NCBI GenBank assembly: GCA_009746045.1 | Contig: RPFO01000264.1 | Span: forward strand, 434,001-498,000 | Direction of reading: 5' to 3' | DNA: 64,000 nucleotides | From: Mesostigma viride | Taxonomy: Eukaryota > Streptophyta > Mesostigmatophyceae > Mesostigmatales > Mesostigmataceae | Part shown: positions 30,856 through 52,563 of the stretch, piece by piece | How positions within the stretch are numbered: position 1 is the first letter of the stretch | How the letters are laid out: each line of letters opens with the position of its first letter | Notes under the pieces: generated by a model | What the model saw: the letters and a program-made list of their open reading frames with translations, nothing else | What the model was told of the DNA's origin: nothing | Database searches by the model: none | Position numbers and translations under genes: made by a program

Positions 30856-30857
30856 CA

Positions 30858-31769
30858 ATGGCAGCCAACGCAGCAGTAGCAGCAGCTACCAGCATCGGGG
30901 CCTTCATTAGTGCTGCTGATAAGTTACCAAAGTTTGATGGTGTGGATCCTCGTAAGTGGGAGGCAACGAATGTCCGCTTTACTCGTTTGCTGAAAGCCTT
31001 TAACCTGTATGGGGTAATCACGGGTGAGATTGAGGATGATGGCAAGGACGCGGCAGTCCAGGCCGCGATGGGCATCTTTTTAGATGGCCTGGCTCTTATG
31101 CTGGTCAAGAATGTGACCAGTGCGAAACAGGCATGGGAGCTCCTGACGAAGAGGTTTGGTCACCACCGTACGACTGAGACCTATCAGGATGAACTGCGTC
31201 GCAAGCTTCGTTCCAAGGAGCCTGCACCAGTGGACAAGCCCCTCAATGAGTTTCTGGCAGCGAGGGAGCTGACGCGCGAGGAGTACGTCCAGGAGCTGGA
31301 GGGGCGTTTTGACGACCAGGACATGGTCCTCTCTACTCATGACCTCATGCCTGCTGCGATCCGGGTGATGATGGCAGCGCAGGATGTACGCATCACCACA
31401 CTCACGTGGGATGAGTACAAGGCACGGGTGCTGAGGATTGAGGACAGCATCAAGGCCCAGGCGGCCATCATGCGCAACACAGGCGGGGGGAAGCAGGGAG
31501 ACACCAGGGACACCAGTTCCCTGGCTGGAGTCTTTGCTACCATGGCGATGGATGACGGGAAGAAGGGTGCCTGTTTTCACTGCGGCAAACCTGGCCACAA
31601 GGTCGCAAACTGTTTCAAGAAGCACCCTCATCTTCGCAAGGGGGGAAAGGACGGAGAGGCCAAGGCGCAGGCCAACTTGACGTCCACCCCTGGGCAGCAG
31701 GAGGCACTGGAGGTGCCCCCTGGTTTTGTTTTCCACACTGGGGTGGAGGCTCCCGCTGACCAACTGTAG
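30858..31769 (+). CDS. TR-GAG Gag (copia-type) with CCHC zinc knuckle
   Basis: 303 residues, intact from ATG to TAG. Residues ~20-190 match the copia-type gag layout: L-P-K-F-D-G-V-D-P-R-K-W-E near the start, then A-K-Q-A-W-E-L-L, a helix-rich middle, and W-D-E-Y-K-A-R-V-L. A zinc knuckle C-F-H-C-G-K-P-G-H-K-V-A-N-C lies at about residues 237-250 and would bind element RNA. There is no protease after it. The start at 30858 is the first ATG in the frame. Confidence 0.85.
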   Translation: MAANAAVAAATSIGAFISAADKLPKFDGVDPRKWEATNVRFTRLLKAFNLYGVITGEIEDDGKDAAVQAAMGIFLDGLALMLVKNVTSAKQAWELLTKRFGHHRTTETYQDELRRKLRSKEPAPVDKPLNEFLAARELTREEYVQELEGRFDDQDMVLSTHDLMPAAIRVMMAAQDVRITTLTWDEYKARVLRIEDSIKAQAAIMRNTGGGKQGDTRDTSSLAGVFATMAMDDGKKGACFHCGKPGHKVANCFKKHPHLRKGGKDGEAKAQANLTSTPGQQEALEVPPGFVFHTGVEAPADQL

Positions 31770-31857: not shown

Positions 31858-32646
31858 TGTCAGCCGTAGTGGGCCAAGGCAGTCCCGGCACTAGTTTTTC
31901 TGGCTGTCAGTTAGCCGAATTAGTGGGATGACAATGATGGATTTTATCCAGGCTATTTAATTCGTGCTACGAATTTTTTAGTGCTGCGTTTCTGATGCCC
32001 AAGATACTGTGAGGGCTTAGTATCTGAGAGCCCGACGGAATATCTTTATTCCGATATGTTCGACGGAATCTTTTTCGTTTGCTTGTCTGTTTATGCGACT
32101 TTTGGACTTGTGCGTTTTTCCTTACCTTGAATTATGCTCTGGGCCGTTTGTGTCTCAGACTACTAGCCGTTGTGATGCCAAAAAGGGGATCCGCGCTTCG
32201 CGCAGTACTTTGGACTGTACCGTTACAGAGAAAAGTGTACCTCAGTGTAGGCGCGTTGCGCCACACTCTCTATGTTTGATGCTGCCTTGGAGGCGCTGCG
32301 ACTTTGCTCCAGCATGTCATACATTGCATTCTACTAGTCCTGTTTTTGGTACGCCGCGTCACCTACCAGTGTGAGCGCCGGCACATGTGGTACTCCGCAC
32401 TTGTGTTGTATGAGCCGTAGATTTTTATGTCGACGGCCAAAAGTGCTCAGCCGCCACTCATACCTCTAGGACAAAAGTGATGCACTTGTGCACGATGCTC
32501 TAGTTCTCACGTAATTTATACCACTGGACCCCAGCCATGGAGTCCGGGGTTTGTGGAGCTCGGAACAATTGAAAGTAATGTGTTTTTAATACAACATTCC
32601 TTTATGATTGGAAAGATCGTTCCTCCAATACCTTAATTGTTCAACA
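31858..32646 (+). repeat. TR-GAG 3' LTR
   Basis: Direct repeat of 29418-30206. It is preceded by the polypurine tract AAGGGGGG and followed by the duplication AAATC (32647-32651). Confidence 0.95.
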
Positions 32647-34547: not shown

Positions 34548-35227
34548 TGTTGCGTGCCCGACCCTTGGAACGGGCGCAACAATGGAATAAATTATGTATT
34601 TTGGCTTGTTGTCATAGTCCGTAGGACTTTGGGACTCATTTCGGGACGTAATTTGGGAATTGTCCCTTGGTCAGGACTTTTGTATGGAACTATGATAGTT
34701 TGTGTGATTCGGACTAGTTATTTTGGGCCTAGGTTGATGTATGAGATCTTCTACTAGGGGCCGGCGCAGTCGCGCCGCGCTGTGTACTTTACAGCCGGTT
34801 AAGATCTTGTATTCATGCGTGGATTCTGTAGGTGAGGGTCGATGTCGACCCGAGGATCTTGTGTGGACTGCATGTTTCGGAGTTCTCTGGAAGGTCGGCG
34901 CCATGTCGGCGCCTCTTGCCAGCTTGGTGGCAGACCTAGGTGAAATTGGTCCGAGGACGATCAGTCTCGCTCTCTTGGTTCGGAATAAAGTGTGTGTTAT
35001 CATCTGTCTGAACCTGGGGCATAAATTCCAACTGCATTTGGTAGCTCCATCCTAAATGTGGATTGTGTAGATTAATGCAATATTAATCACCGCGAGCCGT
35101 AACAGGCCTAAAGCCACGCCTGTTCCGTCAATCCCACTCCCAAAGAGTGGTCGTGGTTAGCCAAGAAACCGGTGACAACCTACCTTATCAATAGGATCTT
35201 TCGCACGACCCGGATGGGTTCGTTACA
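34548..35227 (+). repeat. gypsy-A 3' LTR
   Basis: 680 bp, direct repeat of 1773-2452 with about one visible difference. It is followed by the duplication ACTGC at 35228-35232. Confidence 0.95.
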
Positions 35228-36155
35228 ACTGCAGAGCAGCAGGACTACGGAACACCTGTAGTTAGCATTTCGCTTTTCAGGACAATTTTTGAAGCAGTGA
35301 GAGTAAGCATGCGAGTCCGGATTGAGAAATATCGCACGAAAATTATGGGTGAGTGCTCCCGCTGCCGGAAGTTAAAGGATGCCATCTTGTCTTATCGGAC
35401 CACTGACCGGGCTCGGTGGGAGGCTTTCAAAGCGAAGTTAGCTGATCACACCGACTTCTTTAATGGGGAACGGATGGCTTACCTGCAACGAAGGTTTGAG
35501 GGCGCCAAGCACTATTTTGTTTCCATAGTCATCGATGGTCTGGCGAAAATGAAGACGGCGGTTCCAACCAGGGGCAGCGCCTCGAAAGAGTGGCTTAGCA
35601 GCCGCAAGCTACATATACCCTACCAGCTGGTTTGCTCGATTTTGCACGGAGTGAGGACGTACTTCTGGGTGATTATGCCTTGGGTAGCCAATTCTGAGGT
35701 TTCTGGTAATTCAGGGCGTGTCACTGCGACGCTGCTCACACACCAATTGTTGGAAGTGGTGGTTGAGCGACCATGGGAAAGGTCCCACAATCCTGAGATC
35801 CGCGAGTTTGGCCTTGCCACGACACTCGTCCTTCAAGTGGACGGGGGTGGGGACAACATGAATAGCGAGCTATTGGGCTTTCTAGCGGTTCTCATTAACC
35901 GCCGTCTCTTTTCTCTCATCAGGGTGTGCCGCCTGCCCCCGGGGCACACCCATAATGACGCTGATCAGAGATTTGGTTGGTTTATCCGGTGGTACAACGG
36001 GATGAAGAACCGCGTGTCAGATCTCGCACCGGTGCATGCTCATGCTGACATTTCAAGATGTGTTGCAAGGGCTGACGCGTGCCTTTGCACACTTCTACGA
36101 GCAAGGCCCATCCGGGAGCATGGCGACAATAAACCCACTGCCGCCATCTGCCAAG
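35228..36155 (+). pseudogene. DUF7869-type gene, central part with RNase-H-like domain
   Basis: In frame with 1201-1772 once the composite is removed. It has a C-S-R-C-R-K-L-K-D motif (zinc-binding-like, ~35351-35377), then V-S-I-V-I-D-G (first conserved Asp), L-V-L-Q-V-D-G-G-G-D-N (second), and L-P-P-G-H-T-H-N-D-A-D-Q-R-F-G (third). The L-Q-x-D ... P-x-G-H-T-H-x-D-x-D-Q pattern is the hallmark of DUF7869 proteins, widespread in algae, oomycetes and some animals and suspected to be transposase-derived. Whether this is a host gene or part of a DNA transposon cannot be told here. The exon probably ends at 36155 before GTTGGT. Confidence 0.65.
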
Positions 36156-36352
36156 GTTGGTTTTCTTTAAAATACTATGAATTTCTTCCGGGTTCTTCTT
36201 CTTTTCCATATATGTAGCATGCCAATCTCGCCTCTGTGATTTATCATTCTCTGAGAATGTATACCCATACATTCTATATATATTTATATGGTACATGATT
36301 GTATATATATTGAGCGTGTTTGTAGGTGGGGGCTTTGTCATTTAGCATGCCA

Positions 36353-37661
36353 TGTCGCGTCTGCGTACCACAATCTCCGGCGCCACCATGGCGGCTGGCC
36401 ATGCTCAGCTTTGGTAAAACCCAAATGAGCTGAGCTGACGTGCCTGCCTTAACTGCATGCCCGGTGGGTTGGGCGAGGAGCTGTCCCATGATTAAAGAGA
36501 AGGAGGGCTCTCAGCCGAGGACAAGGAACTGTCCCTCGTGCCTGATAACCACCTTATTGCCTCCCCTGCTATAGAATAATGCTTTCAAAACACACACTTT
36601 GCACAGTCTGATGATGAAGCCGCACATGCGGAATTTATTGAGAAAGTTAATACAACTACAACACGTTGATAGTCTCAATATCGATGCACTCCATGCTCAC
36701 GAGCCCGCAGTTAGGCAGCGCTCCATGACATGCTACCGGCCTTGCTCCCAAGGAAAGGGAGAAACACGAAGGCCACTAACTAACGAGAGACTCGAAGAGA
36801 CTACACGCTACGTGAGAGTCCTCTTCGACTATGAACCAAACCATTCGTCATGCCACACGCATGACACACGCCACACTTGTCAGTCCAGCCAGGAATGCCA
36901 AACTATCTTGCTGCCTGAACCATGCAAACAGAAACCGCATTCCAGTTGCCGTCCTGGCTTACTACCACACATGCCAACAAAAACAGGAAGGCATCCCGAC
37001 AAATCTAAATTGCTACCCTGTTGCCGATCTCATCTCCTAGAGGCTCCGGCATTTCTGTCCCTGGGAATGTCCGGCATTTAGTCACGACCACCAAGGTCGA
37101 AGCATAATATCCTTCAAACAATCTGCACGCTCACACCTTGCGTGTGAGTGGCCCAGCAAACATTGCTTCTAATCTTTCCTTTCTAGAAGAAATCCCTTTG
37201 TAGGGCTGCCAGCGATTTCGCATTCATTCCAGCGATCTGGCTCCGCACCGCAAATTGTCCTTTTCCATTTTCTGTCCAGTCCTCATAACGTTGACCCGCT
37301 ATTCTACACCACAAAGACACCTGGCCTGTCAATAGCCTCGGCGCTGTTGAAGTCCAGCAGTCCAGCTCCAGCTCCAGCTCCAGCTCCAGCTCCAGCTCCA
37401 GCTGTCCACTAACTCGCGTATGATCCTCTCGACGCTGCGCACTTGTGCTGCCGTCCGCTCAAGTACGTCAGTGCTGCGCGCCCAGCCGTGCCTGGCCCGG
37501 CGCGCGCGCACGTGCACTTTCGTCCGCTCTTATGCTGCAAGTGCTAGTGTCCCCCCCCGGTCACTAGCCTTTGTCGAAAATGCGCAGAAAACAAATTCCT
37601 TGCGCACGTCACCGGTCTTGTGCATAGTGGGCGCCCGGATGACATAGCTCGCGTCCGTGAC
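36353..37661 (-). repeat. gypsy-D 3' LTR (left), 1.3 kb
   Basis: It starts TGTCGCGTCTGCG and ends GCGTCCGTGACA on the plus strand. From 36495 to 37661 it matches 48571-49735 with about ten small differences. The first ~142 bp are absent from the right copy but recur at 37664-37803. It contains seven copies of CCAGCT (37362-37403), against six in the right copy. Confidence 0.85.
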
Positions 37662-37663
37662 AG

Positions 37664-37803
37664 CTGTCGCGTCTGCGTACCACAATCTCCGGCGCCACCA
37701 TGGCGGCTGGCCATGCTCAGCTTTGGTAAAACCCAAATGAGCTGAGCTGACGTGCCTGCCTTAACTGCATGCCCGGTGGGTGGGCGAGGACCTGTCCCAT
37801 GAT
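37664..37803 (-). repeat. Extra LTR end fragment of gypsy-D
   Basis: 140 bp nearly identical to 36353-36494, separated from the 3' LTR only by GC. On the minus strand it directly follows a G-rich tract (GCGAGGGGGG, 37804-37813), the presumed polypurine tract. So the 3' end is polypurine tract, LTR end piece, GC, full LTR. Confidence 0.8.
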
Positions 37804-37830
37804 TCCCCCCTCGCTGGCTCTCATGGCTCC

Positions 37831-38661
37831 TCACATGGCCAGCGACCGTGCCAACACCACAGCAGCTAAGGAAATGGTGACGCTACTGGTTGCGAAACGG
37901 GCAGCGACACAAACTGGGCAAAACCACTGGCCCGCTGGCACGGTGGTGAGCGCTGGCTGCAAGCAGTGCATGTGCCACCCACAATTACAGTGATCACACA
38001 GCAACATGGTATCCCCCTGGTCTACGCGATGGCAAACCTGACACTGTGCGTCCTTGACCCGCCTGGCCGTGTGCGGGGCGAGGTCAGGCAATAAGTTGGG
38101 CAACGAACACGGACTGAGGTTGCTTACGTTATCGGTGGTGCGACTGCCGTCGACGCCCTCCAAAATGGCGACCCCAGATGGCTTGATGGCGACGATCCGC
38201 AAGATGGTCGGCCCCGCAGTCACGTCAAGAGTGTCGGTCAGCTGCGTGCGGAGAAATACGAACTGCCCCGGACGAAAATGCAGCTGACGGGCCATGTAAG
38301 CGCCCCCCCGGCGCTGAGCGTAGCGCAGGGTATCTCGGTGCTGGGCGATGAACAAGTTGTTCATGGCGATGGGCATAACCTTGCGGAAAGTAGCCGCCCG
38401 TGCGGTCACCTCAGCCAGAAACTGACTGGCGTTGTCAAACGCCATAGGGGTGGGGTGTGCACTCTGCGCCTCCGTGGGGAGCAAGGGTGCGCGCCCAAAC
38501 AACAGGAAATACGGGGAGAAACAGGCGAGCGACTCCTGGGGTGACATTCGGTAACCCATGGCTATCCACGCCAGTTCACGATCCCACATAGTGAATGATG
38601 CTGACTGCAGGCTCCACTTGCGCAAAGCCTGCTTGACAGTCTGCACCAATCTCTCAGCCAA
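37831..38661 (-). CDS. gypsy-D integrase C-terminal part with PHD finger
   Basis: 276 codons. It begins with the catalytic Glu region (A-E-R-L-V-Q-T-V-K-Q-A-L), then the integrase C-terminal module (F-R-P-G-Q-F-V-F-L-R; G-P-T-I-L-R-I-V). At about 37905-38050 there is a complete C4HC3 PHD finger: C-Q-V-C, C-D-H-C, H-M-H-C, C-P-V-C, with W-F before the last pair. PHD fingers read histone H3 tails, so it is a chromatin reader in the place where chromoviruses have a chromodomain. A short hydrophobic tail follows. The frame joins the integrase core through a frameshift near 38660-38690. Confidence 0.85.
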   Translation of the reverse strand: MAERLVQTVKQALRKWSLQSASFTMWDRELAWIAMGYRMSPQESLACFSPYFLLFGRAPLLPTEAQSAHPTPMAFDNASQFLAEVTARAATFRKVMPIAMNNLFIAQHRDTLRYAQRRGGAYMARQLHFRPGQFVFLRTQLTDTLDVTAGPTILRIVAIKPSGVAILEGVDGSRTTDNVSNLSPCSLPNLLPDLAPHTARRVKDAQCQVCHRVDQGDTMLLCDHCNCGWHMHCLQPALTTVPAGQWFCPVCVAARFATSSVTISLAAVVLARSLAM

Positions 38662-39232
38662 ACCATTGGCCTGAGGATGCTCCGAGAAGTGCGACGGTGA
38701 TCAATGAGACATGCATCCAACAATTCCTGAAATTCCCCCGAAACTCCCCGCCCTGGTCGGTGACCACCTCCGCGGGGGCGCCAAACCTGGCGATGATGTC
38801 GGCGAAGTGCTTGGCGGTGGTGGCGGCCTGCTTGTCAGCAATGGGGATGAGCTCGACCCACTTGCTAAAACTTTCGACACACACCATGACATACTTGTGG
38901 CCATCTGCACTTTCATCAAAGGGCCCACACAGGTCTACGTGCCAGCGGTAGAAGAGCCCTCTGATGGGTAGGCTCATCAATTCTTTCGCATCGTGGTCCA
39001 CATTGAACCGGGCCTTCACCCGGGCACACTGCGCGCAGCGAGCGACGACCTGCGCGACTGTGGCACGCATGCCGTTCCACCAATAAGAGGCGCGCACTAG
39101 CGCCAAAGTGCGGTTACCACCCAGGTGGCCATACCGCTCATGGCTTGCTGGACGATGGCGACCCGCTTGTGAGGCGGCGGCACCACCACTTTGCGCTTGC
39201 CGATCATTTTGTGGAGGACCCCGGCATCCCAC
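38654..39232 (-). pseudogene. gypsy-D integrase zinc-binding domain and core
   Basis: It contains H-E-R-Y-G-H and C-A-Q-C (HHCC zinc domain), V-D-L-C-G-P-F (first Asp), and V-T-D-Q-G-G-E-F (second Asp). The upstream join to RNase H needs a frame change near 39150, and the join to the Glu-containing segment needs another near 38680. The first ~30 codons of this frame are not integrase-like and belong to the overlapping frame. Confidence 0.75.
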
Positions 39233-40974
39233 GAGTAGGTGACCGCCCTATGTTGCACCCTATTCAACTCAGCGTCACGCTGGGCTGAGGACCAATCAAC
39301 AGGGGTTGGGGTGAGAGCTATCCCTTGGACCTGCTCCAACACACGCCCATCGAGCCACACATCACCCATGTTGCATTCCACTGTGAGATGGCCAACCAAC
39401 ACCACCTGGAGTGCTAGGTATCGTGCCAAGGTATTGTCAATGTCAAAGGACGGAGAATTACCTTCCTCCAACGCGAGGAGGCCAGCGGCAGGGGTGAAGG
39501 GAGAAGGGTGAACTGCATTGCAGCTTGCCGCAAAGTCTGCGACTGTATACTCGACTGCGCGCCAGTCTGCCTCGGCGTCGGCGTCAGCGAAGCCTGCAGC
39601 ATTAACAAAAACCACAGACCCAGGCGAGCTCTCGGCCCCTAGGGCCCGCGCACCAGTGTTGTCAACAGTGGTTGGTAGAGCATACCTGGACAGGACGTCC
39701 GCGTTGGAGTGATCCACACCTGGCCGATGGACGATTGTCAGGTGGTACTCCTGAATGATCATTGCCCACCGGGCCAGCTTACCCGTGAGTTTGTCGCTGG
39801 TCATCAACCACAATAAGGGCTGGTGATCAGTGACAAGTGTGAACACCCGCCCAAAGAGATATGGCCTGAAGTGCTTGATGGCCCACACAACGGCTAACGC
39901 TTCCCCCTCGTAGGAAGAGTACCGACTCTCGGCAGAGTTGTTACTCCGACTAGCGTACGCGATAACATGCTCGCGCCCCGCATCGTCCTTTTGTGCTAGC
40001 ACAGCCCCTAGGCCTACCTTGGACCAATCGGTGTAAAGAATGAAGGGCAGAGCATAGTCGGGGGCGCGTAGGATAGGAGCGGCAGTCAGTTCCTGTTTGA
40101 TGGTATCGATGGCTCGCTGCTGAGCCGGACCCCACGCCCAGACATTGCCCTTCTTCAACAACTCAGTCAGGGGTTTGACTTTGGTGCTGAAATTCTGAAT
40201 ATATCCTCGATAATAGCCAGCTAGCCCGAGATACGCGCGCACCCCCGAGATGTCGATGGGCACTGCGGCGTTGCTGATGGCTTCCACTTTGGCTGCCTCA
40301 GGGGTCCGGCCACCTGGTACAATCTGATGGCCAAGAAACCCTATGGTCTGTTGGGCGAACTTGCACTTTTCAGGGTGCAGCCGCAGGTTGGCCTTATCTA
40401 GGGCGATCCGAACCTGATCGAGGTGAGCTAAGTGCTGGTCAAATGTCTCGCTAAAGACAATGACATCGTCTATGTAGCAGGCTGCAAATGGCAACCCTGC
40501 CAGCACCTGGTCCATGGCACGTTGGAACACCGCACTAGCGTTGCGATGTCCGAATGGCATGCGAACCCACTCGTACAGACGGGTCCCACCCCAAAAGGCC
40601 AGCTTGCGCTGATCTGCCTCTACGACCTTGATCTGATGGAAGCCGCTACGCAAATCTAGCGACGACACATACTTGACCTGGGGAGATATTTTATCCAAAA
40701 CATCATCGACCCGAGGCATGGGGTACCTATCAACAGGAGTGTGCGCGTTCAGCTGACGCAGGTCAGTGGCCATGCGCATACCTGTCCACTCGCCTGTGAT
40801 GGTATCCTTCTTGGGTGCGACCACCGTGGCAGCTGCATAACTGGAGGATGAAGCGCGGATGATCCCAGCTGCCTCTAGCTCTCGACAGTTAGCATCTACG
40901 AATTCCAGCTCAGCCAAGCTCAGCCTATGCTGCCGCCTGAATAAGGGCTGATCCGTATCTAGTGGGACCCCCAT
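39097..40974 (-). CDS. gypsy-D reverse transcriptase and RNase H
   Basis: An open frame of 625 codons. RT: R-Q-H-R-L-S, A-T-D-L-R-Q-L-N, Y-P-M-P-R-V-D-D, S-L-D-L-R-S-G-F-H-Q (first catalytic Asp), and Y-I-D-D-V-I-V-F (catalytic pair), then L-G-H and A-G-Y-Y-R. RNase H: Y-T-D-W-S, Y-E-G-E-A-L-A-V, V-T-D-H-Q-P, H-S-N-A-D-V-L-S-R. The open frame extends upstream of the ATG at 40974 by about 11 codons, consistent with a polyprotein. It is not closely related to the gypsy-A RT by eye. Confidence 0.88.
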   Translation of the reverse strand: MGVPLDTDQPLFRRQHRLSLAELEFVDANCRELEAAGIIRASSSSYAAATVVAPKKDTITGEWTGMRMATDLRQLNAHTPVDRYPMPRVDDVLDKISPQVKYVSSLDLRSGFHQIKVVEADQRKLAFWGGTRLYEWVRMPFGHRNASAVFQRAMDQVLAGLPFAACYIDDVIVFSETFDQHLAHLDQVRIALDKANLRLHPEKCKFAQQTIGFLGHQIVPGGRTPEAAKVEAISNAAVPIDISGVRAYLGLAGYYRGYIQNFSTKVKPLTELLKKGNVWAWGPAQQRAIDTIKQELTAAPILRAPDYALPFILYTDWSKVGLGAVLAQKDDAGREHVIAYASRSNNSAESRYSSYEGEALAVVWAIKHFRPYLFGRVFTLVTDHQPLLWLMTSDKLTGKLARWAMIIQEYHLTIVHRPGVDHSNADVLSRYALPTTVDNTGARALGAESSPGSVVFVNAAGFADADAEADWRAVEYTVADFAASCNAVHPSPFTPAAGLLALEEGNSPSFDIDNTLARYLALQVVLVGHLTVECNMGDVWLDGRVLEQVQGIALTPTPVDWSSAQRDAELNRVQHRAVTYSWDAGVLHKMIGKRKVVVPPPHKRVAIVQQAMSGMATWVVTALWR

Positions 40975-40994
40975 GCAGCCCCCGTTGTAGCACC

Positions 40995-42630
40995 CTAGTT
41001 CTTCACTGCTGAAAGCGAAACTGAGCGTGCAGAATGCAACCAGTGCTCCATAGCCTTGCGTTGCGTGGCGGTGAGGTGCTCACCTATGGCCCATATGTGA
41101 GAGGCAGCAGGATCTGCGACTGCGGCACTCCTACTGTCGAGACAAGGCCCCCGGACAGCGGCATCGTGGAAAAGGGAAAATGCGGCTACACCGGGTGTGA
41201 CGCTCACCTGCTGAATGGCACGGACTGCGCGACCGACCGATTGCTGCAGGGTGGGCGCTCCAGCGAACACCGTGCTGGACAACAAGGACGTCATGAGGAT
41301 AACGCTCCATAGTTGAAGCAGCCGCGATCTCCATGGCGACCCAGTGCCGCCGGACGCTGTTGGCCGGACACCAGCCGCGTGGGCACTGACAGGCGGTGGC
41401 GGTGTGGGGATATCTCCCCCACCCTGGCGCACTTGCATTGCGGCCCGCAGAACATACCCAACCTGGAAGGCTGACATGGCTTGCCCAACGAGAGACCACC
41501 TAGTGGCCTCTAAAACCCCCTCAGCGGCGGACGCCCCCACATGGAACCCCATGCTCACCTCCCGAAACTCAGCGGGCGGCTGCACCAACAAACCCGTACC
41601 GGTGTCCCATACCAAACCCTTGCCCCGGTCCCTGTAGGCCGATGACCCCTGGTAACTAACCAAGGTGGGAAGAGCGCACATAGGCTTACCTACGTGATTG
41701 ACGGGTGCGTAAGGGTGCCGATCGGCGACATCTACACGCTGCGTGACCAAATGTGGTGGCAGCGCCACCTCCGCGGGCATGCCGTCGTGCTGTCGTGTGA
41801 TCGCATCTACCACTGCCTGGATGGTGGTGGTGAGTGCAAGGTTGGTCCAGAATGCGCGGTACCTGTGGGTGAGCCCGCCCAATCCTGCATTGTCGCACGT
41901 GACTGGGCCCCTAAGATGTCCACGATCTGGGCCCAGTCCTTCCTCACTACCTCGTGAGGGCTGTCGTCGGCCACCACGTTCTCAAAAAGATACGCTAGTG
42001 GCTGGTCCTGCAGCTGCTGCAAGAGTCCAACGACTCGAAGCAGATCCCAAAACAACCCGCTCCTAGGATCCGCAAGCCCGCGTCCTACGCCGGCCTGACT
42101 CAACCCTTGACATTCCCAGCCCGCGAGGACGAGGTCTATCCTCTTGTGCCGCCTCAAAAGGCCTCGCACATGAACCTCCCCAATGGCACGGATATCCTGA
42201 GGGCACTCCCCAAAGGATCTGTCCACGCAGACGGAGGAAACTGAGATGGATACAGGGCAGACAGCTGGGCACAGTGATGCCTATACACTGCCCGAGCGGT
42301 AGGAGACGGCTCTACGGCGATCAACGTGTGGCACGTACCGCCTGCAGCGAGAAAGCCAGCCAGCCCCCCTCCCATCCCAGCAAACAATTCTAGCAATACA
42401 ACCCCTTCGGACAAGACCCGCGACTCTGCCACAACATCGGCACAGAAGTTACCTTCGGTTGTCGCGACAGCCACTTGGACTGCGATTGCCGCGGGAGATG
42501 AGAGAGTTGTTGCTGCCGCACCGCGTTGGTGACGTGCTGACGCAAAAGGGCCTGCCGCGCTTGCGGCTGCTGTCGCGCCGCCCACGTGCTGTGCAATGAG
42601 GCCCGTCCCACCAGCGCTGTTGGGATGCAC
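40995..42630 (-). pseudogene. gypsy-D C5 cytosine DNA methyltransferase, split over three frames
   Basis: Methylates cytosine in DNA using S-adenosylmethionine. Motifs in order on the minus strand: motif I L-F-A-G-M-G-G-G (~42370-42400); an acidic V-E-P-S (motif II, ~42305); motif IV A-G-W-E-C-Q-G-L-S-Q-A-G (~42085-42128) with the catalytic Cys; L-A-D-P-R-S-G-L-F; motif VI L-F-E-N-V (~41985); motif VIII-like H-R-Y-R-A-F-W-T-N-L (~41840-41870); motif IX F-R-E-V-S-M-G-F (~41545); motif X L-V-G-Q-A-M (~41480). The frame shifts near 42210 and near 41870. Motif IV has Glu where Pro-Cys is standard. After motif X comes a hydrophobic stretch (~41275-41320) before RT. It lies between protease and RT. 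Retrotransposons with acquired DNA methyltransferases are known from dinoflagellates and charophyte algae. Confidence 0.85.
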
Positions 42631-45187
42631 GGCCGATGCTTATCACGCACAGCCCCCCCAGCTGCCGTGACCTCCCCCATCCGTACCTCCACCACCGCGT
42701 CGTGCGAGCCAGCCTCGACCCGGTTGACCGTCGAGACACGCACTGCCCCAGTGTCCGAGCTGTAGCAGCTCACCGGGATGCTTGCTTGGCGCATGGCGTC
42801 ACCGTCTCTGTCAACGATGTACACCGCGCGGCCTTCCCACATGCGTACCTCGAGCCGCATGGGAAACATGACCTCCATGCCGACCAGCACGTCATACGAT
42901 GACTGCTCGGTCACAAGGGCATTCACAGGGATGCAGGCCATGTCGGATGGCCTGAGCGGGTTGAGGATGACCATTACCTGGACCGCAGTCATGGCAAAGG
43001 GTTTAGCGGCAGGGCCCTGCCAGCCCGCCACGGACACATGACTGTCCCGCAGCCCGCCATTCTCCCTGGTTAGGTTGAGCAACTGGGCCAGCCGAGCACT
43101 GATAACGAGTGGCTGGGCCCCGCTGTCCAGTTTCACGACCAATTCATGGTCAGTACTGTAGACCACGTTGCTCAGGGGCTCCCCGTGCCCCTGCGCCTGA
43201 AACGCCATTGCTGGCTCGCCATCCGGATATGAGGTGACAGTGGGTGCCCTAGGCACTACGCACGCCCGCTGCGCGTTGTCCAAGACACCATGAGCGACAT
43301 GACCCACGATTACCGAAGCCGATGCAGGGCGATGCCCGACAAATGTGGCTGTCTCAGCGTTGTGCAACCTACGGGCGTCCATTGTGTCAGCGTACCGCTG
43401 TACCTCTGACGCATGCGACCCGAGCACCTCCACGGCCCGCTGACCGAACCACTCGACCACTTGCCGGGGAGTGTATGCAGGCGTGTCCACGACCGACGGC
43501 ATAGGGTATAATGGCAACAACCTGCGCCGCTGCTCTGCCCCAGCAGGATTGTCGTGTTCCAGGGTGGAGCCGGTCCGAGCGGGAGCCATGCGAAAGGACT
43601 GAGGCAGCTGCCCCACAGTCTCACTTGGCTGCCCCACCTGAAACGACGGCGGTGCACGTGCTTGCTTCCCTCGCGCGCCAACTGCGTGGATGTCCAACGC
43701 CATCACGTCGGCTGGCCGCCAGAAGTCCTCGTCCCTGTATTGAACCTGCGATCCCCCATCCTCCCTTTCACGTCCCCCCGCCTCGCCCGTCGGCTGAATG
43801 ATGACCACCCCCGCGTCCACCTTCTTGTCCTCCACGTCCGCAAAGTGCACCCCCGGCGCTGGGCACTGCCCCGCCAGATGGGTGCGGACCGTTGCCGGGT
43901 GTGACTTCTTACACGCCTTGGGACAATCACGTTTGATGTGCCCATCCTGACCGCACAGGAAGCAGCCCGATTTGCGCGCATCCGTCCTACCCGTCTGTGA
44001 GGACGTGCCCCCCCCAGCTCGCGTCGGCGGAGCGGCAGCGTCCTTGTTGCCGCCAGCGGCGTTACCCTGGGTTGCATCATGCGATGAGGCGTTGCGAGAC
44101 CCCCCTTGGTTCCTGCTAGCACCGTGGCCGCCTTGCGGGCGCGCTTGTCTTGTGGCAGACGACTCACCCGACTTGGCCTTGGTCAGCGCGTCGACCTTGG
44201 CCTGCAGCTCGGCCACCACCGTGCTTACCGAGATCCGGCCTTGCGCGTGTCGTCGCATCATGGCCCTGACCTCAATGCACAGTGACCGCAATCGCCACGG
44301 CTGGCCGTTGGGCGGCGTGGGCAGCTCCATCTCCTTGGAGCCTAGCGCTTGCAGCCATTTCTGACACGCCAGCTTTTCGGACCAGTCCTCCACTTCGCCG
44401 GCGAACTCCATGAGGCGCTCGTAAGATTGCTCCGGGGTTTCACCCTCGGCTATCTTGAAACTGCGCCACTCACGCTCTGCCTTGATGGTCTCCACCGGGT
44501 ATTCCTGGCGAAGGAGGCCCCACAGTTCCTCGGCAGGGTCGACACCATACATGATGTTGTCATAGTCGGGCTGGCCACGCCCGTCGAAGCCGAACCACAC
44601 GTCCGTGTGACGCGTGTACAGCGAGACCTCTCTCCACTGCTCCACCAGCCTAGCCACTCGCCTCAGCGTAAGGCCGTGAAAGAAGAAATGCATGTTGTTC
44701 ATCACAAACTCATGCATTACAGCGCCTTGCGTAGTCATGTATTGCAGATCAATCCATGACTTGTACGCGTTGTAGGCCTGCGCCAGCGTGGCCAGATTGC
44801 CGGTTGTGGAGAACTTCTCGCGCATGTCCACCCGTGGTAGGGTGGGCATCTTCGCGCCTTCAGGTATGAGGCGCACCCTTTGCGGGTACTGCACCCCATC
44901 GGCATCCTCCGGCGGTCGCTGAGCTGCGCGTCCCTGCGCCAGCGTGCTTGGGCGTGCTGCCTCCCGTACTCGGAAAGCCAGCGGCGTGGTTATGTCCTCC
45001 ATGGGCGGAATGCGCCCGATTGGCACACTTGACCACCGTGCAGTCGACCCGCCGGTCAGCGCCCCACCGCCTCGCCCAAACGGAATTGAGACCCCGCCTG
45101 GCAGCATGCGTCCTGGTGCACCCCTGCGTGGGTCCATCGCGCGCGCCAGCCCTGCCCCGTTCTCCTCGTGCAATCCGTCTCGCGCTT
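42390..45187 (-). CDS. gypsy-D Gag (main part) and protease
   Basis: A single open frame of over 920 codons continuing the gag start at 47777-48272 after removal of the tandem LTR insertion. The gag capsid-like region (about 45000-44230) includes W-F-G-F-D, Y-D-N-I-M-Y and E-Q-S-Y-E-R-L-M-E-F. A zinc knuckle C-F-L-C-G-Q-D-G-H-I-K-R-D-C lies near 43920-43965. The protease V-K-L-D-S-G-A-Q-P-L-V-I-S is near 43100-43145, followed by Y-D-V-L-V-G-M near 42880. The last ~80 codons overlap the methyltransferase frame (42390-42630) and are probably the wrong frame there. Confidence 0.85.
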
Positions 45188-46151
45188 TGTCACGTCCGTG
45201 ATCATTTACGTCCGTGCACTCAAGAAGTTACGCGGTTGCCGTAATCGGAATCGTTACCGACGTTTGGTTGGTTCCGATTCAGTAGGCAGCAGGCTTTGTT
45301 CCTTGGGCCGGTGTGGAGCGCCGCGCCGGAAAGGCCTGAATTTCTAGAGTGACAGTCTTAGGTGACCTGACTTAGGTTCAGGCGCAAGACTTTGGGGCGC
45401 AAAGCCTTGGTGGCTTGCGCAATATTCCGGTGCGTGACATTTGGCAGTTATGAATCTTTTGTATTGTCCAGACGGAATGATGTTCAGTCCATCTGACAAA
45501 GCTAGATACGCAGATCGTAGTGTGCGGTGTGCTGGCTCGCACGTGGTTGTCGAACAGACTTGCTCTGCATTTTGCTGGCAGTCTAACTGCACGTCAGGCG
45601 GCTTGCTGGCAAATGCGACAGCGCATGGATGCCGGGATTTTTGGAGGTATTTAGGAGCAGCGCAGCGGCCATGGTGGTCGTTGTTCGCTCGTTTCTCTCC
45701 CTCACAACTAGTTTGTTGTCTTCATGGGGTTAAACTTCTCGAACAGCCCGGAGCAGCCCCCGTGAGTGGTTGCATGTCGTTGCCATGACGATGGTTGATA
45801 AGATTGACAATGGTTTGATCCGGTTGGGATGTTGTTGGCATTGTGGACGAGAAACGTTCTGCTGACCCGGGAACAGTCCCGGGAAAGGGCCGGTTCGTCG
45901 TTGGCCAGTGTGCCAGTAACTGGGACATGAGCGCAGAGTCACACAGTTGATATAGATTATGACGTAAGTAAACACTGTTGCGCCACAGTGGCGTCATGGT
46001 CGGTCTGTGGTGATTTCGATGGGTCTCAAGGATATGTAGTTACTCTTACAGTTGCGGCAGCACAACTCGGCATTCATTGTAATTTGTCAAATGTTATGGA
46101 ATGAATGGTTTGGGCATTGCTTTCATCATAAAGCATTATTGCAATCTTCAT

Positions 46152-46160
46152 AATATAAAT
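46152..46160 (+). promoter_or_regulatory. TATA-like box in the LTR-like unit
   Basis: AATATAAAT precedes a GC-rich stretch with CGGCTGGCTGCGCTGCC. It is repeated in unit 2 (47601-47609). It would fit an LTR promoter; no experimental sign. Confidence 0.35.
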
Positions 46161-46309
46161 ATCGGCTGGCTGCGCTGCCTGTCATGAAGGTGGTGGTGCC
46201 GTCAAGGACCACACCTATCATTTCCACTTTATTTTAACGAGCGAACAACCCTTGGCGGGTTCAGTTCGGACAGCCTGAGCCGGAGATATACCCAAGCTGC
46301 TTGCAGAAT

Positions 46310-46430
46310 CAAGCACTTGGAAGAGGATTAAGCTTATCCTTTAAAAAGCTATGAAGAGGATTAGGCTTATCCTTGAAAAAGCCATGAAGAGGATTATGCT
46401 TATCCTTGAAAAAGCAATGAAGAGGTTATT
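46310..46430. repeat. Tandem repeat of AAGAGGATTA-type 36-bp unit
   Basis: Three to four imperfect copies of a unit containing AAGAGGATTA...GCTTATCCTT and AAAAAGC. It occurs only in unit 1 of the pair and in its duplicate (60290-60400). Confidence 0.8.
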
Positions 46431-47776
46431 GCTTAGCCTATTTGAAAAGCATGTGTGGTCATGTCGTGGGAATTTTTTTTCCCTATGTGATCCTCTTTTT
46501 GACTTTTTGGCTCTTCCTTTTTTCGAGCTAAAAAGTGGGGGGGAATATAGTGGATCACACACAAGAGTACTCTATTGCTATGGATATGCCTTCCAAGTGA
46601 TAGGCTAGGATATAATGGCACGCAAACGCGACAGCTGTCACGTCCGTGATCATTTACGTCCGTGCACTCAAGAAGTTACGCGGTTGCCGTAATCGGAATC
46701 GTTACCGACGTTTGGTTGGTTCCGATTCAGTAGGCAGCAGGCTTTGTTCCTTGGGCCGGTGTGGAGCGCCGCGCCGGAAAGGCCTGAATTTCTAGAGTGA
46801 CAGTCTTAGGTGACCTGACTTAGGTTCAGGCGCAAGACTTTGGGGCGCAAAGCCTTGGTGGCTTGCGCAATATTCCGGTGCGTGACATTTGGCAGTTATG
46901 AATCTTTTGTATTGTCCAGACGGAATGATGTTCAGTCCATCTGACAAAGCTAGATACGCAGATCGTAGTGTGCGGTGTGCTGGCTCGCACGTGGTTGTCG
47001 AACAGACTTGCTCTGCATTTTGCTGGCAGTCTAACTGCACGTCAGGCGGCTTGCTGGCAAATGCGACAGCGCATGGATGCCGGGATTTTTGGAGGTATTT
47101 AGGAGCAGCGCAGCGGCCATGGTGGTCGTTGTTCGCTCGTTTCTCTCCCTCACAACTAGTTTGTTGTCTTCATGGGGTTAAACTTCTCGAACAGCCCGGA
47201 GCAGCCCCCGTGAGTGGTTGCATGTCGTTGCCATGACGATGGTTGATAAGATTGACAATGGTTTGATCCGGTTGGGATGTTGTTGGCATTGTGGACGAGA
47301 AACGTTCTGCTGACCCGGGAACAGTCCCGGGAAAGGGCCGGTTCGTCGTTGGCCAGTGTGCCAGTAACTGGGACATGAGCGCAGAGTCACACAGTTGATA
47401 TAGATTATGACGTAAGTAAACACTGTTGCGCCACAGTGGCGTCATGGTCGGTCTGTGGTGATTTCGATGGGTCTCAAGGATATGTAGTTACTCTTACAGT
47501 TGCGGCAGCACAACTCGGCATTCATTGTAATTTGTCAAATGTTATGGAATGAATGGTTTGGGCATTGCTTTCATCATAAAGCATTATTGCAATCTTCATA
47601 ATATAAATATCGGCTGGCTGCGCTGCCTGTCATGAAGGTGGTGGTGCCGTCAAGGACCACACCTATCATTTCCACTTTATTTAATATAGTGGATCACACA
47701 CAAGAGTACTCTATTGCTATGGATATGCCTTCCAAGTGATAGGCTAGGATATAATGGCACGCAAACGCGACAGCTT

Positions 47777-48272
47777 GATCGAAAGGCAGGCGCCTGGGCG
47801 CCAGCGTATACTCGCCCCGTGGCTGACCATCCGCCTCACCAAGCAAGTCGTGCTGGGTTAGCGACCCAGCCAAAACCCCCGGTTCCATCGGAGCCCTTCC
47901 CGCCGCATTACCTGAGGTTGGCGGCTGGTCCCGCTCCCTCGGCTCCGCGGCAACACCACTTGGGCCCGGCATCATTGCCTGCCCGTCCCATGGTGTGGAC
48001 TGCAGATGACGACCCTCTACGGCCACCGATCTGTCGGTCACTTCCCGCATCTGCAGCGCCAGTTGCTGCTGCAACTGTAGCGACTGTTGCTGCATCTGCG
48101 CTTGCATCTGCGCGAACAGCGCCACCATACTCAGCGGCGCTTCTTGGTCGCGACTCTCACCCACTGCGGGTACGGCGGGAGGAATCCCGCCATTCGACCC
48201 CGGAGCGGGCGTGTCGGCATCTGCTCTATTTGCATCCGCCATGGCTCGAGTCTGCGCTCGCGTCAGTGGCAT
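47777..48272 (-). CDS. gypsy-D Gag N-terminus
   Basis: ATG at 48272 opens M-P-L-T-R-A-Q-T-R-A-M-A-D, a typical gypsy gag start. A Gln/Met-rich helix (L-F-A-Q-M-Q-A-Q-M-Q-Q-Q) likely forms a coiled coil. The frame is cut at 47776 by the tandem LTR insertion and continues at 45187. The visible ORF beyond 47772 into the insertion is not gag. Confidence 0.75.
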
Positions 48273-48570
48273 GCACCAGCTGACCGATGGGCAAAACAAG
48301 AACCAACAAACCTAGGTTTCGCTGAGAAGAAGCAACAACCAAAGGCTTTATAACAGGCGTCAAGGATAACGACTCGACTAGCCTGCCAGAAAAAGACAAG
48401 AGCCAGCAAATTCTGGCTAGTTCTATTTTCTTAAAATCTGTCTCAAGACACTTCCTTTACAAACTGTCAGCCAGGCCGTTCCCTGTACTGCTGATGGTTG
48501 GTAAACACTAAAGCCAACGTCTTGGCTTCGAACAGAAGGAAGCAGACTACCGGGTAGTCTCTTCAAGTAA
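48273..48570 (-). other. gypsy-D 5' leader
   Basis: About 300 bp between the right LTR and the gag ATG. I see no clear tRNA-complementary PBS next to the LTR edge. The region where the missing 142-bp LTR end would be is replaced by this sequence. Confidence 0.45.
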
Positions 48571-49735
48571 AGAGAAGGAGGGCTCTCAGCCGAGGACAAG
48601 GAACTGTCCCTCGTGCCTGATAACCACCTTATTGCCTCCCCTGCTATAGAATAATGCTTTCAAAAACACACTTTGCACAGTCTGATGATGAAGCCGCACA
48701 TGCGGAATTTATTGAGAAAGTTAATACAATTACAACACGTTGATAGTCTCAATATCGATGCACTCCATGCTCACGAGCTCGCAGTTAGGCAGCGCTCCAT
48801 GACATGCTACCGGCCTTGCTCCCAAGGAAAGGGAGAAACACGAAGGCCACTAACGAGAGACTCGAAGAGACTACACGCTACGTGAGAGTTCTCTTCGACT
48901 ATGAACCAAACCATTCGTCATGCCACACGCATGACACACGCCACACTTGTCAGTCCAGCCAGGAATGCCAACACTATCTTGCTGCCTGAACCATGCAAAC
49001 AGAAACCGCATTCCAGTTGCCGTCCTGGCTTACTACCACACATGCCAACAAAAACAGGAAGGCATCCCGACAAATCTAAATTGCTACCCTGTTGCCGATC
49101 TCATCTCCTAGAGGCTCCGGCATTTCTGTCCCTGGGAATGTCCGGCATTTAGTCACGACCACCAAGGTCGAAGCATAATATCCTTCAAACAATCTGCACG
49201 CTCACACCTTGCGTGTGAGTGGCCCAGCAAACATTGCTTCTAATTTTTCCTTTCTAGACGAAATCCCTTTGTAGGGCTGCCAGCGATTTCGCATTCATTC
49301 CAGCGATCTGGCTCCGCACCGCAAATTGTCCTTTTCCATTTTCTGTCCAGTCCTCATAACGTTGACCCGCTATTCTACACCACAAAGACACCTGGCCCGT
49401 CAATAGCCTCGGCGCTGTTGAAGTCCAGCAGTCCAGCTCCAGCTCCAGCTCCAGCTCCAGCTCCAGCTGTCCACTAACTCGCGTATGATCAATCCTCTCG
49501 ACGCTGCGCACTTGTGCTGCCGTCCGCTCAAGTACGTTGACCAGTGCTGCGCGCCCAGCCGTGCCTGGCCCGGCGCACGCGCACGTGCACTTTCGTCCGC
49601 TCTTATGCTGCAAGTGCTAGTGTCCCCCCCCGGTCACTAGCCTTTGTCGAAAATGCGCAGAAAACAAATTCCTTGCGCACGTCACCGGTCTTGTGCATAG
49701 TGGGCGCCCGGATGACATAGCTCGCGTCCGTGACA
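48571..49735 (-). repeat. gypsy-D 5' LTR (right)
   Basis: About 1,165 bp matching 36495-37661, with indels such as 4 bp near 48853, 4 bp near 49490 and CCAGCT copy number 6 versus 7. It ends GTGACA and is followed by the duplication GCCA. Confidence 0.85.
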
Positions 49736-49823
49736 GCCATAGTTAACCAATAATCACCTTGCTTACTCGCCTCTTATTGCAACTGTTTGTTCTATGCTTG
49801 TTGCTTGCAGCTCGTCAATGCAG

Positions 49824-51479
49824 CGCTGGACTTCACAACGTGGCTTCGAGGCTGCATGGACCCAGATCTTGGGCGTTGGGTCAAGTCTGCTGACGTGGTT
49901 ATGGACGCGTCAACCAACCAACCTGTGGTGGAGCATCGGCCGGTCAGCAAGATATTTGATATCGAGCTATTCGGCCATCACGATGAAGGTGCAGGGGCGG
50001 ACGTTGGTGATGACTGCTTTTTGCGCTACCGACTTGCCACGGCAGAGGCGTTAGCTGATGTGCCCGCCAACTGTTGGAGGCCTCTTGGGCCGAACGAGGA
50101 GCCATGCGACATGGTTACTGTCTCTTCGAAGCGTGTGAGTGATGGCAAAGAGCTCCGCGGCGTGCTAGTCATGGAGGCGACCAAGGCGCCCAAGGGCAGC
50201 CCAGGTGTTGCCGCGTTTGCGGATTGGGATGGCGATCGCGCAATCCGCCGTCATTGCTCTAAACTCAACCGAGTGTTTCCAGACATCATGACGGATGCAA
50301 AGCAAGCAGAGCCCAACGAGGAGATCCGCGGCTTCCCCGCTGAGCCGGAGCAAGTGGAAGAATAAGCGTCGGTGTTTGACCGCATGATCCAAGCTCTGAC
50401 GGAGTGCAGGGAGCAGCAAAAACACAAGCCCCTCCCTTTTTGCCTCCACAGTGCAGGGGATCAGGCGGTGATGCGGGCTGCCCGTGCTTTGGAAGCGCCG
50501 CTGCACCCAATTATCAGCCATGCAGGCAACCGCCGGCACGAGGTGCAAACTGCCATTCACCGGGCGCGACGCGAGGCTGAGCGCCTGCCGGCCGCATCTG
50601 CGACGCCTGCCACGCTTGCCTCCAATCCTCCTACTGGAGTTGCCTCCAATTCCCCTGCGGATGCCACCGGTGGTGCACGGACCATTGCGACTGCGGATCA
50701 TATTTTTTCCGTAAATCCCGGCATTATCTCCCGCGGAGACTTTCTCATCATCAAGAGACCTGCGGTGACGTGCGGGGAAGGCATGCCCTGGCCAGAGGAG
50801 CTCTTGGTGAAGGTCATGGATGCGTCTACTGTTCGTTCACGCGGGACTCTGACTGTTTCCGTGTTTTACTCACCCTCCTGGGAAGGGCAGTTTAACAAGC
50901 TCTCGCTCGCAGGCGGTGGGCCGGGCCTGACGGTGTCGCATCGGAAATCATCGTTCAACACTGGACAGTTGGTGCATCAGGGCAGGCTGTCCACACTCCG
51001 TCGCTGACAGCAGCACGTAAGCTATCTCGTGCAACCCTCCAGGCCTTAGATGACCATCCACACGTGCACTTTGCTGGTTTTCAAACACAGCAAGCTGCTG
51101 CAGCGACGTCAAAAGCTGCATGTGCGGCACACTTTGTTGAGCACGGGCTGCACGCGCTGAAAGGGAGAAGGCTGTGCGCCTTGTGGGGTGCTGCCAAGAC
51201 CCGTTTTCACGGGTGGGTCACAGAAGTACATGAGAATGGCGGGGCTTTGAAGATCGAGACGGTTTGGTCCGACGGCAAGGGAGCGACGTACACCACGTTG
51301 GAGGAAGTCTTAAAGTTCATCTGCGGGTGCCCTCATGCGGCTAATGCCTTTGGCCGCGAAAAGTTTTTTAGGATGGTGCCGCGGCCGACGCTGAGACGGG
51401 GGCGGAAGAGCCCCAACTTTCTTTTGTTTGTGAGAGTAGCGAGAGTAGCGATGATGATGAGGAGGAAGCATGGGAATGA
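49824..51479 (+). pseudogene. DUF7869-type gene, 3' part with Tudor-like segment
   Basis: It continues the central part in frame after the intron (A-L-D-F-T-T-W-L), with a conserved ~180-residue stretch, an in-frame TAA at 50363-50365, and more sense sequence in the same frame to about 50960 (D-H-I-F-S-V-N-P, G-D-F-L-I-I-K). The frame then changes near 50950-50970; sensible coding runs through V-H-F-A-G-F-Q to a Tudor/SH3-like segment (G-R-R-L-C-A-L-W, F-H-G-W-V-T-E-V, V-W-S-D-G, ~51150-51320). A last change at a possible acceptor TTTTTTAG (51363-51370) gives an acidic tail (S-S-D-D-D-E-E-E) ending in TGA at 51477-51479. Some of the frame changes may be small introns. Confidence 0.6.
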
Positions 51480-51766
51480 TGGGGAATGTGTGAAAGCTTC
51501 GATAGGAGTAAAGGCGTCTCTTTGTCCTGTCAAGCATGCTAGTCTTGTTGCAAGAATGAAGCCCAACATGCCAACTGTCCATGCATGGTCATGTTGCATA
51601 ATGGTGGGCATAAGATACATGTGTTTGCTAGTGGCCATGTTTTACACGGAAATGGATTTACGTTCAGTATGTGATTCAATGACATGTGATTATTTTGGTT
51701 GATGCATGCAATATACCCCATGATAACCAATGCACGTGCAAAGATGTGTGTTTATATGCAATTTGA
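51480..51766. other. 3' flank of the DUF7869-type gene
   Basis: About 290 bp without a supported gene. TGCATG-containing motifs are frequent; no clear AATAAA. Confidence 0.4.
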
Positions 51767-51818
51767 GGTGCAACGGTGCAACGGTGCAACGGTGCAACGG
51801 TGCAACGGTGCAACGGTG
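51767..51818. repeat. (GGTGCAAC)x6 array, second copy
   Basis: Six copies of the same 8-mer as at 527-574, same orientation, followed by GGTGTC. The two arrays lie on the two sides of the interrupted gene. Confidence 0.9.
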
Positions 51819-51881
51819 TCATGAGCATCTAGGTAACCCTTGCATGACCCATCCACCTACATAAAACCCATGGATAACAAA

Positions 51882-52563
51882 AAACAATGAGTAGAGCCCC
51901 TGCCAAAGGCAGGTTTAAGTAGTCATCTCGTCTCCCTCGCATGCAGGAGCAAGAGCCCCCCAAGGGTGGGATGGGTGGGAAGAAACAATTACGGGTCACA
52001 ACCCGCCGACCATGCTTATCAAGCCTACCGTCAAAATGGAAAACGGCAAAACCAGAAATATCCTAACGCTGACAATTTAATAATTCAGCCAGCCAGCTCA
52101 TCTGTCACACGTCTGAGCTGTCAGGCCATGTGTACTCTTCGAATGCAACCCTGAACACACTACCCAACCAAGCAGCACACCAATCAATTGGTGAGTGCTG
52201 GTTACATCAGATTTTATTACAGCTTTTTGACGCAACTTCCGTCAGCATTCCACGCATGGCCGGCCGTTCAAACAAACGGCGTTTGACTTACAAAAGGCAA
52301 AGCTAGTTGCCAGTAGGATTCCCCGGTAAACAACAAGTCGTCCCCATTCGTCTAACAAGCCTCTCTGCATGTACAGCCACAAGGTTGTGGCGGCCCTTTC
52401 TTTCCCGCATTCTGTTTAATAAACTATTTTCAGAGAAATCCGATTATGACACTTGAGCTCCCAAGAAAACCAGCATTTGATTGAAAACAATGAGTAGAGC
52501 CCCTGCCAAAGGCAGGTTTAAGTAGTCATCTCGTCTCCCTCGCATGCAGGAGCAAGAGCCCCC
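51882..52563. repeat. ~78-bp direct repeats flanking ~525 bp
   Basis: AAACAATGAGTAGAGCCCCT and following bases to GAGCCCCCC occur at about 51884-51960 and 52487-52562. The sequence between has no gene; it includes a 27-bp stretch shared in reverse with the copia-C 3' region (52444-52471). It could be a small insertion or a local duplication. Confidence 0.7.

Follow-up and report, generated by a model that had tools for sequence, protein, structure and literature searches.

The question raised by this locus is whether a cytosine DNA methyltransferase (DNMT) forms a regular part of a Ty3/gypsy retrotransposon, and what it might do there. The window, that is the whole stretch of 64,000 nucleotides of Mesostigma viride DNA analysed here, encodes a retroelement polyprotein on the minus strand of 45227-37831. 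From the letters of this strand, the original prediction had placed a C5 methyltransferase at 40995-42630, with motifs I, IV, VI, VIII, IX and X in order between a retropepsin and a reverse transcriptase (RT). A C5 cytosine methyltransferase domain is indeed present on the minus strand at 42408-41406, spread over three frames, with an aspartic protease upstream and the RT downstream. The remaining part, 41405-40995, is a linker between DNMT and RT that contains a hydrophobic stretch. This stretch (LLQLWSVILMTSLLSSTVF, 41265-41321) has a similar, stronger counterpart ahead of the RT in the related protein P0075.

The first DNMT frame (42226-42408) carries the motif I region (ELFAGMGGG), identified by alignment to relatives. 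The second (41909-42214) contains motif IV (GWECQG, with the catalytic Cys) and motif VI (ENV), and is 64% identical to the Mesostigma protein P0122. Motif VIII (HRYR), the target-recognition part and motifs IX and X (GQAM) were located in the third frame (41406-41924) by alignment to relatives; this frame is 66% identical to Mesostigma P0121 over read-through residues 117-346. In Pfam scans, PF00145 matched the frame 42280-41807 alone with an E value of 1.2e-8 (35.2 bits, cut-off 22) and the motif-I frame 42639-42154 weakly, below the Pfam cut-off (E 0.1). The frame 41981-40995 alone gave no Pfam match; relatives nevertheless align across it. When the three frames were read through as one sequence of 348 aa, the match reached 1.2e-11 (45.1 bits, cut-off 22). 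Alignment of this read-through with 10 relatives shows motifs I (LLELFAGMGGG), IV, VI, VIII, IX and X in the predicted order, with the catalytic Cys, ENV, the motif VIII Arg (HRxR) and GQAM all retained. Motif IV reads GWECQ and not GWPCQ, Glu replacing Pro before the catalytic Cys. Among the 58 pattern hits obtained in the 242 proteins retrieved, this residue is Pro in 54, Glu in 3 and Gln in 1. The Glu is also found in P0057, Mesostigma P0122 and P0123.

A profile built from the relatives ranked DNMT3A first (E 4.7e-17), above DRM and HhaI. The profile searches proposed with the prediction did return a C5 methyltransferase, and of DNMT3, DRM, DNMT2 and bacterial enzymes it is DNMT3 that the domain most resembles. 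A fold model of one relative is consistent with a DNMT3-type assignment. With the single read-through sequence as query, the top match was a DRM chain at a borderline value of 1.7e-4. The motifs stand in unpermuted order and the profile scores better against DNMT3, which led us to reject a DRM-like permuted enzyme. Judged from motifs and profiles, the window domain is almost certainly a C5 DNA methyltransferase of the DNMT3 type.

The domain is surrounded by the coding parts of a Ty3/gypsy element, hereafter E, all on the minus strand. The probable N-terminal part of gag, inferred from an ORF at 47777-48311, starts with MPLTRAQTRAM, which by eye looks like the gag start MVNTRSRYY of an intact relative, L002, described below. 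The rest of gag and the protease lie at 42870-45183. In the corresponding 945-aa frame (45227-42390), Pfam detected a CCHC zinc knuckle (~43967-43917, E 9e-6) and a weak aspartic protease (~43148-42870, E 0.003, below the curated cut-off), and P0122 aligns over 43271-42558 at 37.5%. RT and RNase H follow at 39145-41019 (Pfam E values of 4.2e-28 and 1.1e-38; 47% identity to P0001), then the integrase at 38682-39142, with its zinc-binding (1.8e-14) and core (2.7e-10) domains. A PHD finger occupies the C-terminal end of the integrase ORF at 37909-38043 (PF00628, 1.9e-9). The placing of the DNMT between retropepsin and RT is thus borne out, by a weak protease match on one side and a strong RT match on the other. 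The order gag-protease-RT-RNase H-integrase with an rve integrase, the protease being below its curated cut-off, and the short target duplication identify E as Ty3/gypsy. No tyrosine recombinase, the enzyme that marks the DIRS order, was detected in a scan of 10 ORFs (E ≤ 1), which matched rve and H2C2 instead.

The whole element E extends over 36353-49735 (minus strand, 13.4 kb including a nested insertion) and has split direct repeats in the layout A-internal-B-A-B. Repeat A1 (48568-49735) forms the 5′ end and starts with TGTCACGG on the minus strand. Repeat B1 (37665-37804) ends with CGCGACA on the minus strand and is followed by GC and then by repeat A2 (36493-37662). Repeat B2 (36353-36493), which has its boundary base in common with A2, forms the 3′ end. 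B2 is 98.6% identical to B1, and A1 is 97.7% identical to A2 (7 mismatches and 6 gap openings in 1181 columns). The predicted target duplication was found as 4 bp, GCCA, at 36349-36352 and 49736-49739 (one insertion), and its presence on both flanks bounds E at 36353-49735. An ordinary pair of LTRs was rejected because A and B give no equal LTRs at the two ends: the 5′ end of E consists of A only and the 3′ end of B1-A2-B2.

The same layout recurs in L, a non-autonomous element of 2.6 kb inserted within the gag of E in the opposite orientation (45188-47772, plus strand). Its interior measures 309 bp only and its repeats are identical (A copies 100% over 1047, B copies 100% over 93, 0 mismatches). 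L is flanked by a 4-bp duplication, GCTT, at 45184-45187 and 47773-47776 (one insertion). From its sequence, the insertion is evidently very recent. In both E and L, the exact 4-bp duplications sit precisely at TGTC...GACA termini, which favours an integrase-type insertion. The junction CGACA-GC-TGTCACG is common to E (37656), L (46627) and L002 (7050); the chance expectation of the 11-mer CGACAGCTGTC in L002 is 0.004. By analogy with DIRS elements, replication may pass through an end-joined or circular cDNA, followed by integrase-type insertion.

Several other repeats and retroelement remnants lie in the window. A segment of roughly 7 kb, which includes the 5′ repeat of E together with the adjoining flank, is repeated in tandem at 46437-53441, 53442-60408 and 60409-64000, the third copy being cut by the window end; the copies differ mostly by homopolymer indels. 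A second copy of the gag stretch of E at 57971-59157, truncated or recombined, joins the flank abruptly at 57968-57971. A second gypsy-type pol was located at 23750-27321 by tblastn with P0001, P0006 and P0017; the DNMT parts of these queries remained unmatched there. It is interrupted by palindromic repeats (24103-25005) that may be assembly errors. Two related polyprotein stretches, Copia-like by look, lie on opposite strands at 10675-12639 and 16509-18479 (67% DNA identity), and the first is flanked by repeats that are 98% identical (5771-6226 and 13789-14244). Direct repeats of 789 bp, 100% identical, at 29418-30206 and 31858-32646 surround a short gag-like ORF (30822-31769); this looks like a young non-autonomous LTR element. 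Finally, the repeats 1773-2455 and 34548-35231 are 99.7% identical and 33 kb apart, and the second adjoins a DUF7869 ORF (35195-36217).

As assembled, this copy of E is broken. Gag is split by L, and alignment to relatives reveals seven frame switches between 42558 and 38682, all in one direction, as from lost single bases. The duplicated segments of the window gave an indication of sequence quality. Between segment 46437-50940 and its copy at 53442-57968 there are 142 gap events as against 30 substitutions, and 100 of the gaps fall in homopolymers; for the pair 43993-50029/57971-64000 the figures are 16 gap events, of which 11 affect homopolymers, and 5 substitutions. The comparison covers these segments only, and the frame-change sites fall outside them. 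Because these indels resemble raw long-read error, most of the frame changes in E may be artefacts of long-read assembly. It is rather improbable that E is instead a decaying relic whose frame changes are real mutations. The interruption of gag by L and the accumulation of seven frame changes in 3.9 kb would be expected of such a relic; however, A1 and A2 differ at just 7 sites in 1181 columns, the frame changes share the single direction of one-base losses, and the gap-rich, homopolymer-biased differences between the duplicated segments follow the pattern of long-read error. A programmed frameshift from DNMT to RT is also disfavoured: no slippery heptamer was seen by eye in the inspected stretch between the two domains. 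An indel error is more likely, because the shift lies within sequence that matches the RT leader of relatives.

An intact relative was found by scanning bacterial and archaeal genomes with search query A2. L002 is a 9285-bp contig (9.3 kb) from a Synechococcales bin, where it is probably eukaryotic carry-over, a contamination of the public record. Its ends share exactly 127 nt, and the assembly graph was therefore probably circular. ORF1 (1346 aa across the join) encodes gag, protease and DNMT, with PF00145 matched at 6.8e-12 and the protease at 7.8e-4, below the cut-off; the zinc knuckle was recognised by eye only. ORF2 (1047 aa) encodes RT, RNase H, integrase and PHD, in the same frame as ORF1 after a single TAG. 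The DNMT is thus the last domain of ORF1 and the PHD finger the end of ORF2. UAG-CARYYA is a stop-codon readthrough motif, and the stop context of L002, AAG TAG CAA TCA, fits it; the stop after the DNMT is thus predicted to be leaky. Between the window and L002, identity amounts to 45, 41 and 37% for the DNMT pieces, 46% for RT-RNase H and 47-54% for integrase-PHD, compared to 22% for gag-protease. The DNMT thus appears to diverge at a pace only slightly above that of the pol enzymes and far below that of gag. The predicted pairing of a DNMT with a PHD finger holds in this intact element, and PHD fingers were found in 23 of the 120 RT relatives listed from 1103 hits.

The original prediction suggested two functions, concealment of the cDNA or recruitment of host silencing. 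What the DNMT might do for the element can be framed as a sequence of steps. Produced at Gag-like amounts as the last domain of a Gag-protease-DNMT polyprotein, the enzyme would enter the virus-like particle, RT-RNase H-integrase-PHD being made by reading past the leaky in-frame stop. It would there methylate CG sites of the element's cDNA, so that the new copy would carry host-like marks by the time it enters the nucleus. The integrase would place this cDNA, and the PHD finger would probably read the histone H3 tail, choosing the chromatin. By a narrow margin, we favour this scheme, in which the element's own cDNA is the substrate of a particle-borne DNMT. In the window the passage from DNMT to RT is a frame change and not a leaky stop, and the argument from Gag stoichiometry therefore comes from L002. 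According to the available text of de Mendoza 2018 (PMC5890265), retrotransposon DNMTs methylate CG de novo, the SymbioLINE DNMT gave no DNA methylation in yeast, and DNMT-free elements transpose in those hosts as well. Therefore masking cannot be essential.

The solved structures nearest to the PHD finger are those of BAZ2B, CHD4 and WSTF, together with PHF12 and KDM5/lid fingers. Several of these fingers bind histone H3 with unmodified K4, which makes a role of the PHD finger in chromatin targeting plausible, by analogy. An alternative to cDNA methylation, which we consider unlikely but worth weighing, is that DNMT and PHD act together at the insertion site: the PHD finger would steer the element to silent chromatin with unmodified H3K4 and the DNMT would extend methylation there, hiding the element in heterochromatin and limiting harm to the host. 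The kinship with the fingers named above and the frequency of PHD among the listed RT relatives are in line with this proposal. However, the finger is also found in P0102, which in the RT tree falls outside the DNMT-carrying clade, and in L002 the two domains are separated by the stop, the DNMT lying before it and integrase-PHD after it. Moreover, weaker PHD matches include the ING4 finger, which has another specificity.

We return to cDNA methylation as the preferred reading. It presumes an active enzyme, and the Glu that replaces Pro ahead of the catalytic Cys, seen in the window and among the motif-IV hits (3 of 58), could point to a fold kept for nucleic-acid binding or particle structure, not for catalysis. 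This is a good deal less probable, since the catalytic Cys, ENV and the motif VIII Arg are retained and de novo CG methylation by such domains is described in the text available from de Mendoza 2018 (PMC5890265).

Relatives with a DNMT were searched for at the protein level. The read-through protein gave 3 matches at E ≤ 0.001, namely P0121 (Mesostigma, 66%), P0122 (Mesostigma, 60%) and P0123 (39%). P0121 and P0122 bear the label jgi/Mesvir1, taken here to stand for Mesostigma viride. P0122, a single protein, aligns to both the protease and the DNMT of the window. P0123 and the RT protein P0017 may be neighbours, the longest contig being 14730 bp for both. A search with an alignment of four related proteins (alignment A1) retrieved 236 proteins. 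Among the 120 matches listed of these, Marchantia polymorpha, Calypogeia fissa and Sphagnum species are named; for M. polymorpha, one locus may recur under several annotation versions. In Marchantia P0050 and P0124, the DNMT is followed by RT and RNase H (Pfam), and of the two only P0050 has a protease match (0.06). In Closterium P0063, the C-terminal part of the DNMT precedes RT by blastp (1.4e-12) without a Pfam match. Marchantia P0187, one gene model, combines DNMT pieces (blastp) with a PHD finger (Pfam). A different arrangement was observed in P0057, P0074, P0075 and P0078, where the DNMT follows RNase H by blastp (1.5e-9 to 7.8e-22); of P0057, P0075 and P0078, which were scanned with Pfam, only P0075 exceeded the cut-off. 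Among the 120 listed RT relatives, six have the DNMT in the same protein (P0050, P0057, P0063, P0074, P0075 and P0078). In the remaining relatives, a DNMT may be encoded by a separate ORF, as in L002, or be absent. Given the two-ORF layout of L002, listed RT-integrase-PHD proteins without a DNMT may be second ORFs of such elements.

Viral contigs searched with P0123, P0150, P0002 and L002 ORF2 contained no relative. Search query A2 found one locus among viral contigs, L001 (9974-11524), an ordinary FPCQG-type DNMT on an 86-kb phage-like IMG/VR contig, 34% identical to the query; no retroelement was seen in the stretch around it.

An RT tree was constructed from 34 rows, the window and 33 chosen from the 120 listed of 1103 hits. 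All DNMT carriers of the set fall, separately from other gypsy elements, into a single 23-row clade (100/99), and this clade includes some rows without an observed DNMT. The window is sister to all other members of a 17-row group (97/86) in which the Marchantia, Calypogeia and Closterium rows also fall. The six-row group with DNMT after RNase H, in which P0064 and P0066 have no DNMT match, lies outside the 17-row group (100/100). A DNMT tree of 28 rows, unrooted and restricted to the retroelement type, joins the window with Mesostigma (100/99) and recovers the RT-DNMT group (100/99). Its backbone is weak, the long branches of P0063 and P0123 meet, three rows are under half filled and there is no outgroup.

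That a host DNMT3 gene or pseudogene landed by chance in one gypsy copy, as the split frames of this copy might suggest, can be dismissed, because relatives hold the domain at the same position (Mesostigma P0122, Marchantia P0050 and P0124, Closterium P0063 and intact L002) and the carriers among the 34 RT rows form one clade. The domain is, on sequence grounds, a regular part of the element and not a stray insertion. Neither of the two refuting tests set with the prediction, the profile searches and the comparison with relatives, went against it.

The trees fit a single early capture of the DNMT, after which its position may have changed once; repeated captures, or host-to-host transfer, would likewise be compatible with them. 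Tentatively, and with less conviction than for cDNA methylation, we propose that one ancient retrotransposon lineage acquired its DNMT3 in a single event, either before the streptophytes radiated or early in that radiation, and retained it in Mesostigma, Zygnematophyceae, liverworts and mosses. This lineage would combine a Gag-linked DNMT writer before a leaky stop with an integrase-borne PHD reader, and would replicate via an end-joined A-internal-B-A-B form and DDE integration; the element of Klebsormidium would be one of its branches. If so, a parasite carries a self-contained kit for writing and reading silencing marks, and the Klebsormidium case is not a separate capture. If the family does span streptophytes, carriers occur in the genetically tractable Marchantia polymorpha, with its many annotated proteins, and the purpose of the DNMT is therefore open to an in vivo test.

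The concept of a DNMT-bearing gypsy element is already known, and E adds another such element. The 2018 report of de Mendoza and colleagues (PMC5890265), which the original prediction cited, exists and says what was attributed to it: in its available text, DNMT-carrying retrotransposons are described from one dinoflagellate genus and one charophyte, the enzyme's benefit being left undecided. The charophyte element, KnitGypsy-Dnmt3 of Klebsormidium nitens, resembles E as described there, with LTR-Gypsy domains, a DNMT3-type domain inside the polyprotein and DIRS-like repeats; its layout is called the 'same as that of a DIRS retrotransposon' (Fig. 4 legend, PMC5890265). It was read as an acquisition in the K. 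nitens lineage (de Mendoza 2018, PMC5890265, available text), whereas E-type carriers were found in several streptophyte groups. The words PHD, Mesostigma and protease do not occur in the main text of that report (PMC5890265), and none of the named matches listed in our protein searches is from Klebsormidium. As far as the same text describes them, SymbioDIRS-Dnmt3 and SymbioLINE-Dnmt of dinoflagellates are likewise DNMT-bearing retrotransposons, SymbioDIRS with a DNMT3 and split repeats; they use a tyrosine recombinase or LINE machinery, in contrast to the rve (DDE-type) integrase and the 4-bp target duplication of E. For Mesostigma itself, the genome paper (PMC6947507) reports 5-methylcytosine and unusually long LTRs, and the string DNMT is absent from its main text. 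The titles and abstract beginnings searched, among which subscription papers are thinly covered, name no DNMT-bearing gypsy element in Mesostigma, Closterium, Marchantia, Calypogeia or Sphagnum, which does not establish absence from print. Within the literature searched, we did not find the spread over several streptophyte groups, a single RT clade for the carriers tested, the conserved end-to-end junction with target duplications, a DNMT ending ORF1 before a leaky-stop motif, or a PHD finger in the same intact element.

Chromoviruses are Ty3/gypsy elements with a chromodomain. Like them, E carries a module of the histone-reader type after the integrase of a gypsy polyprotein; E differs in having a PHD finger in place of the chromodomain, and a DNMT in addition. 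DIRS, PAT and Kangaroo elements have split direct repeats in the order A-coding-B-A-B and a tyrosine recombinase. E shares this repeat order with them but has instead an rve integrase, a Ty3-type RT and a target duplication. Its layout thus joins two usually separate orders, DIRS-like repeats being combined with a gypsy integrase.
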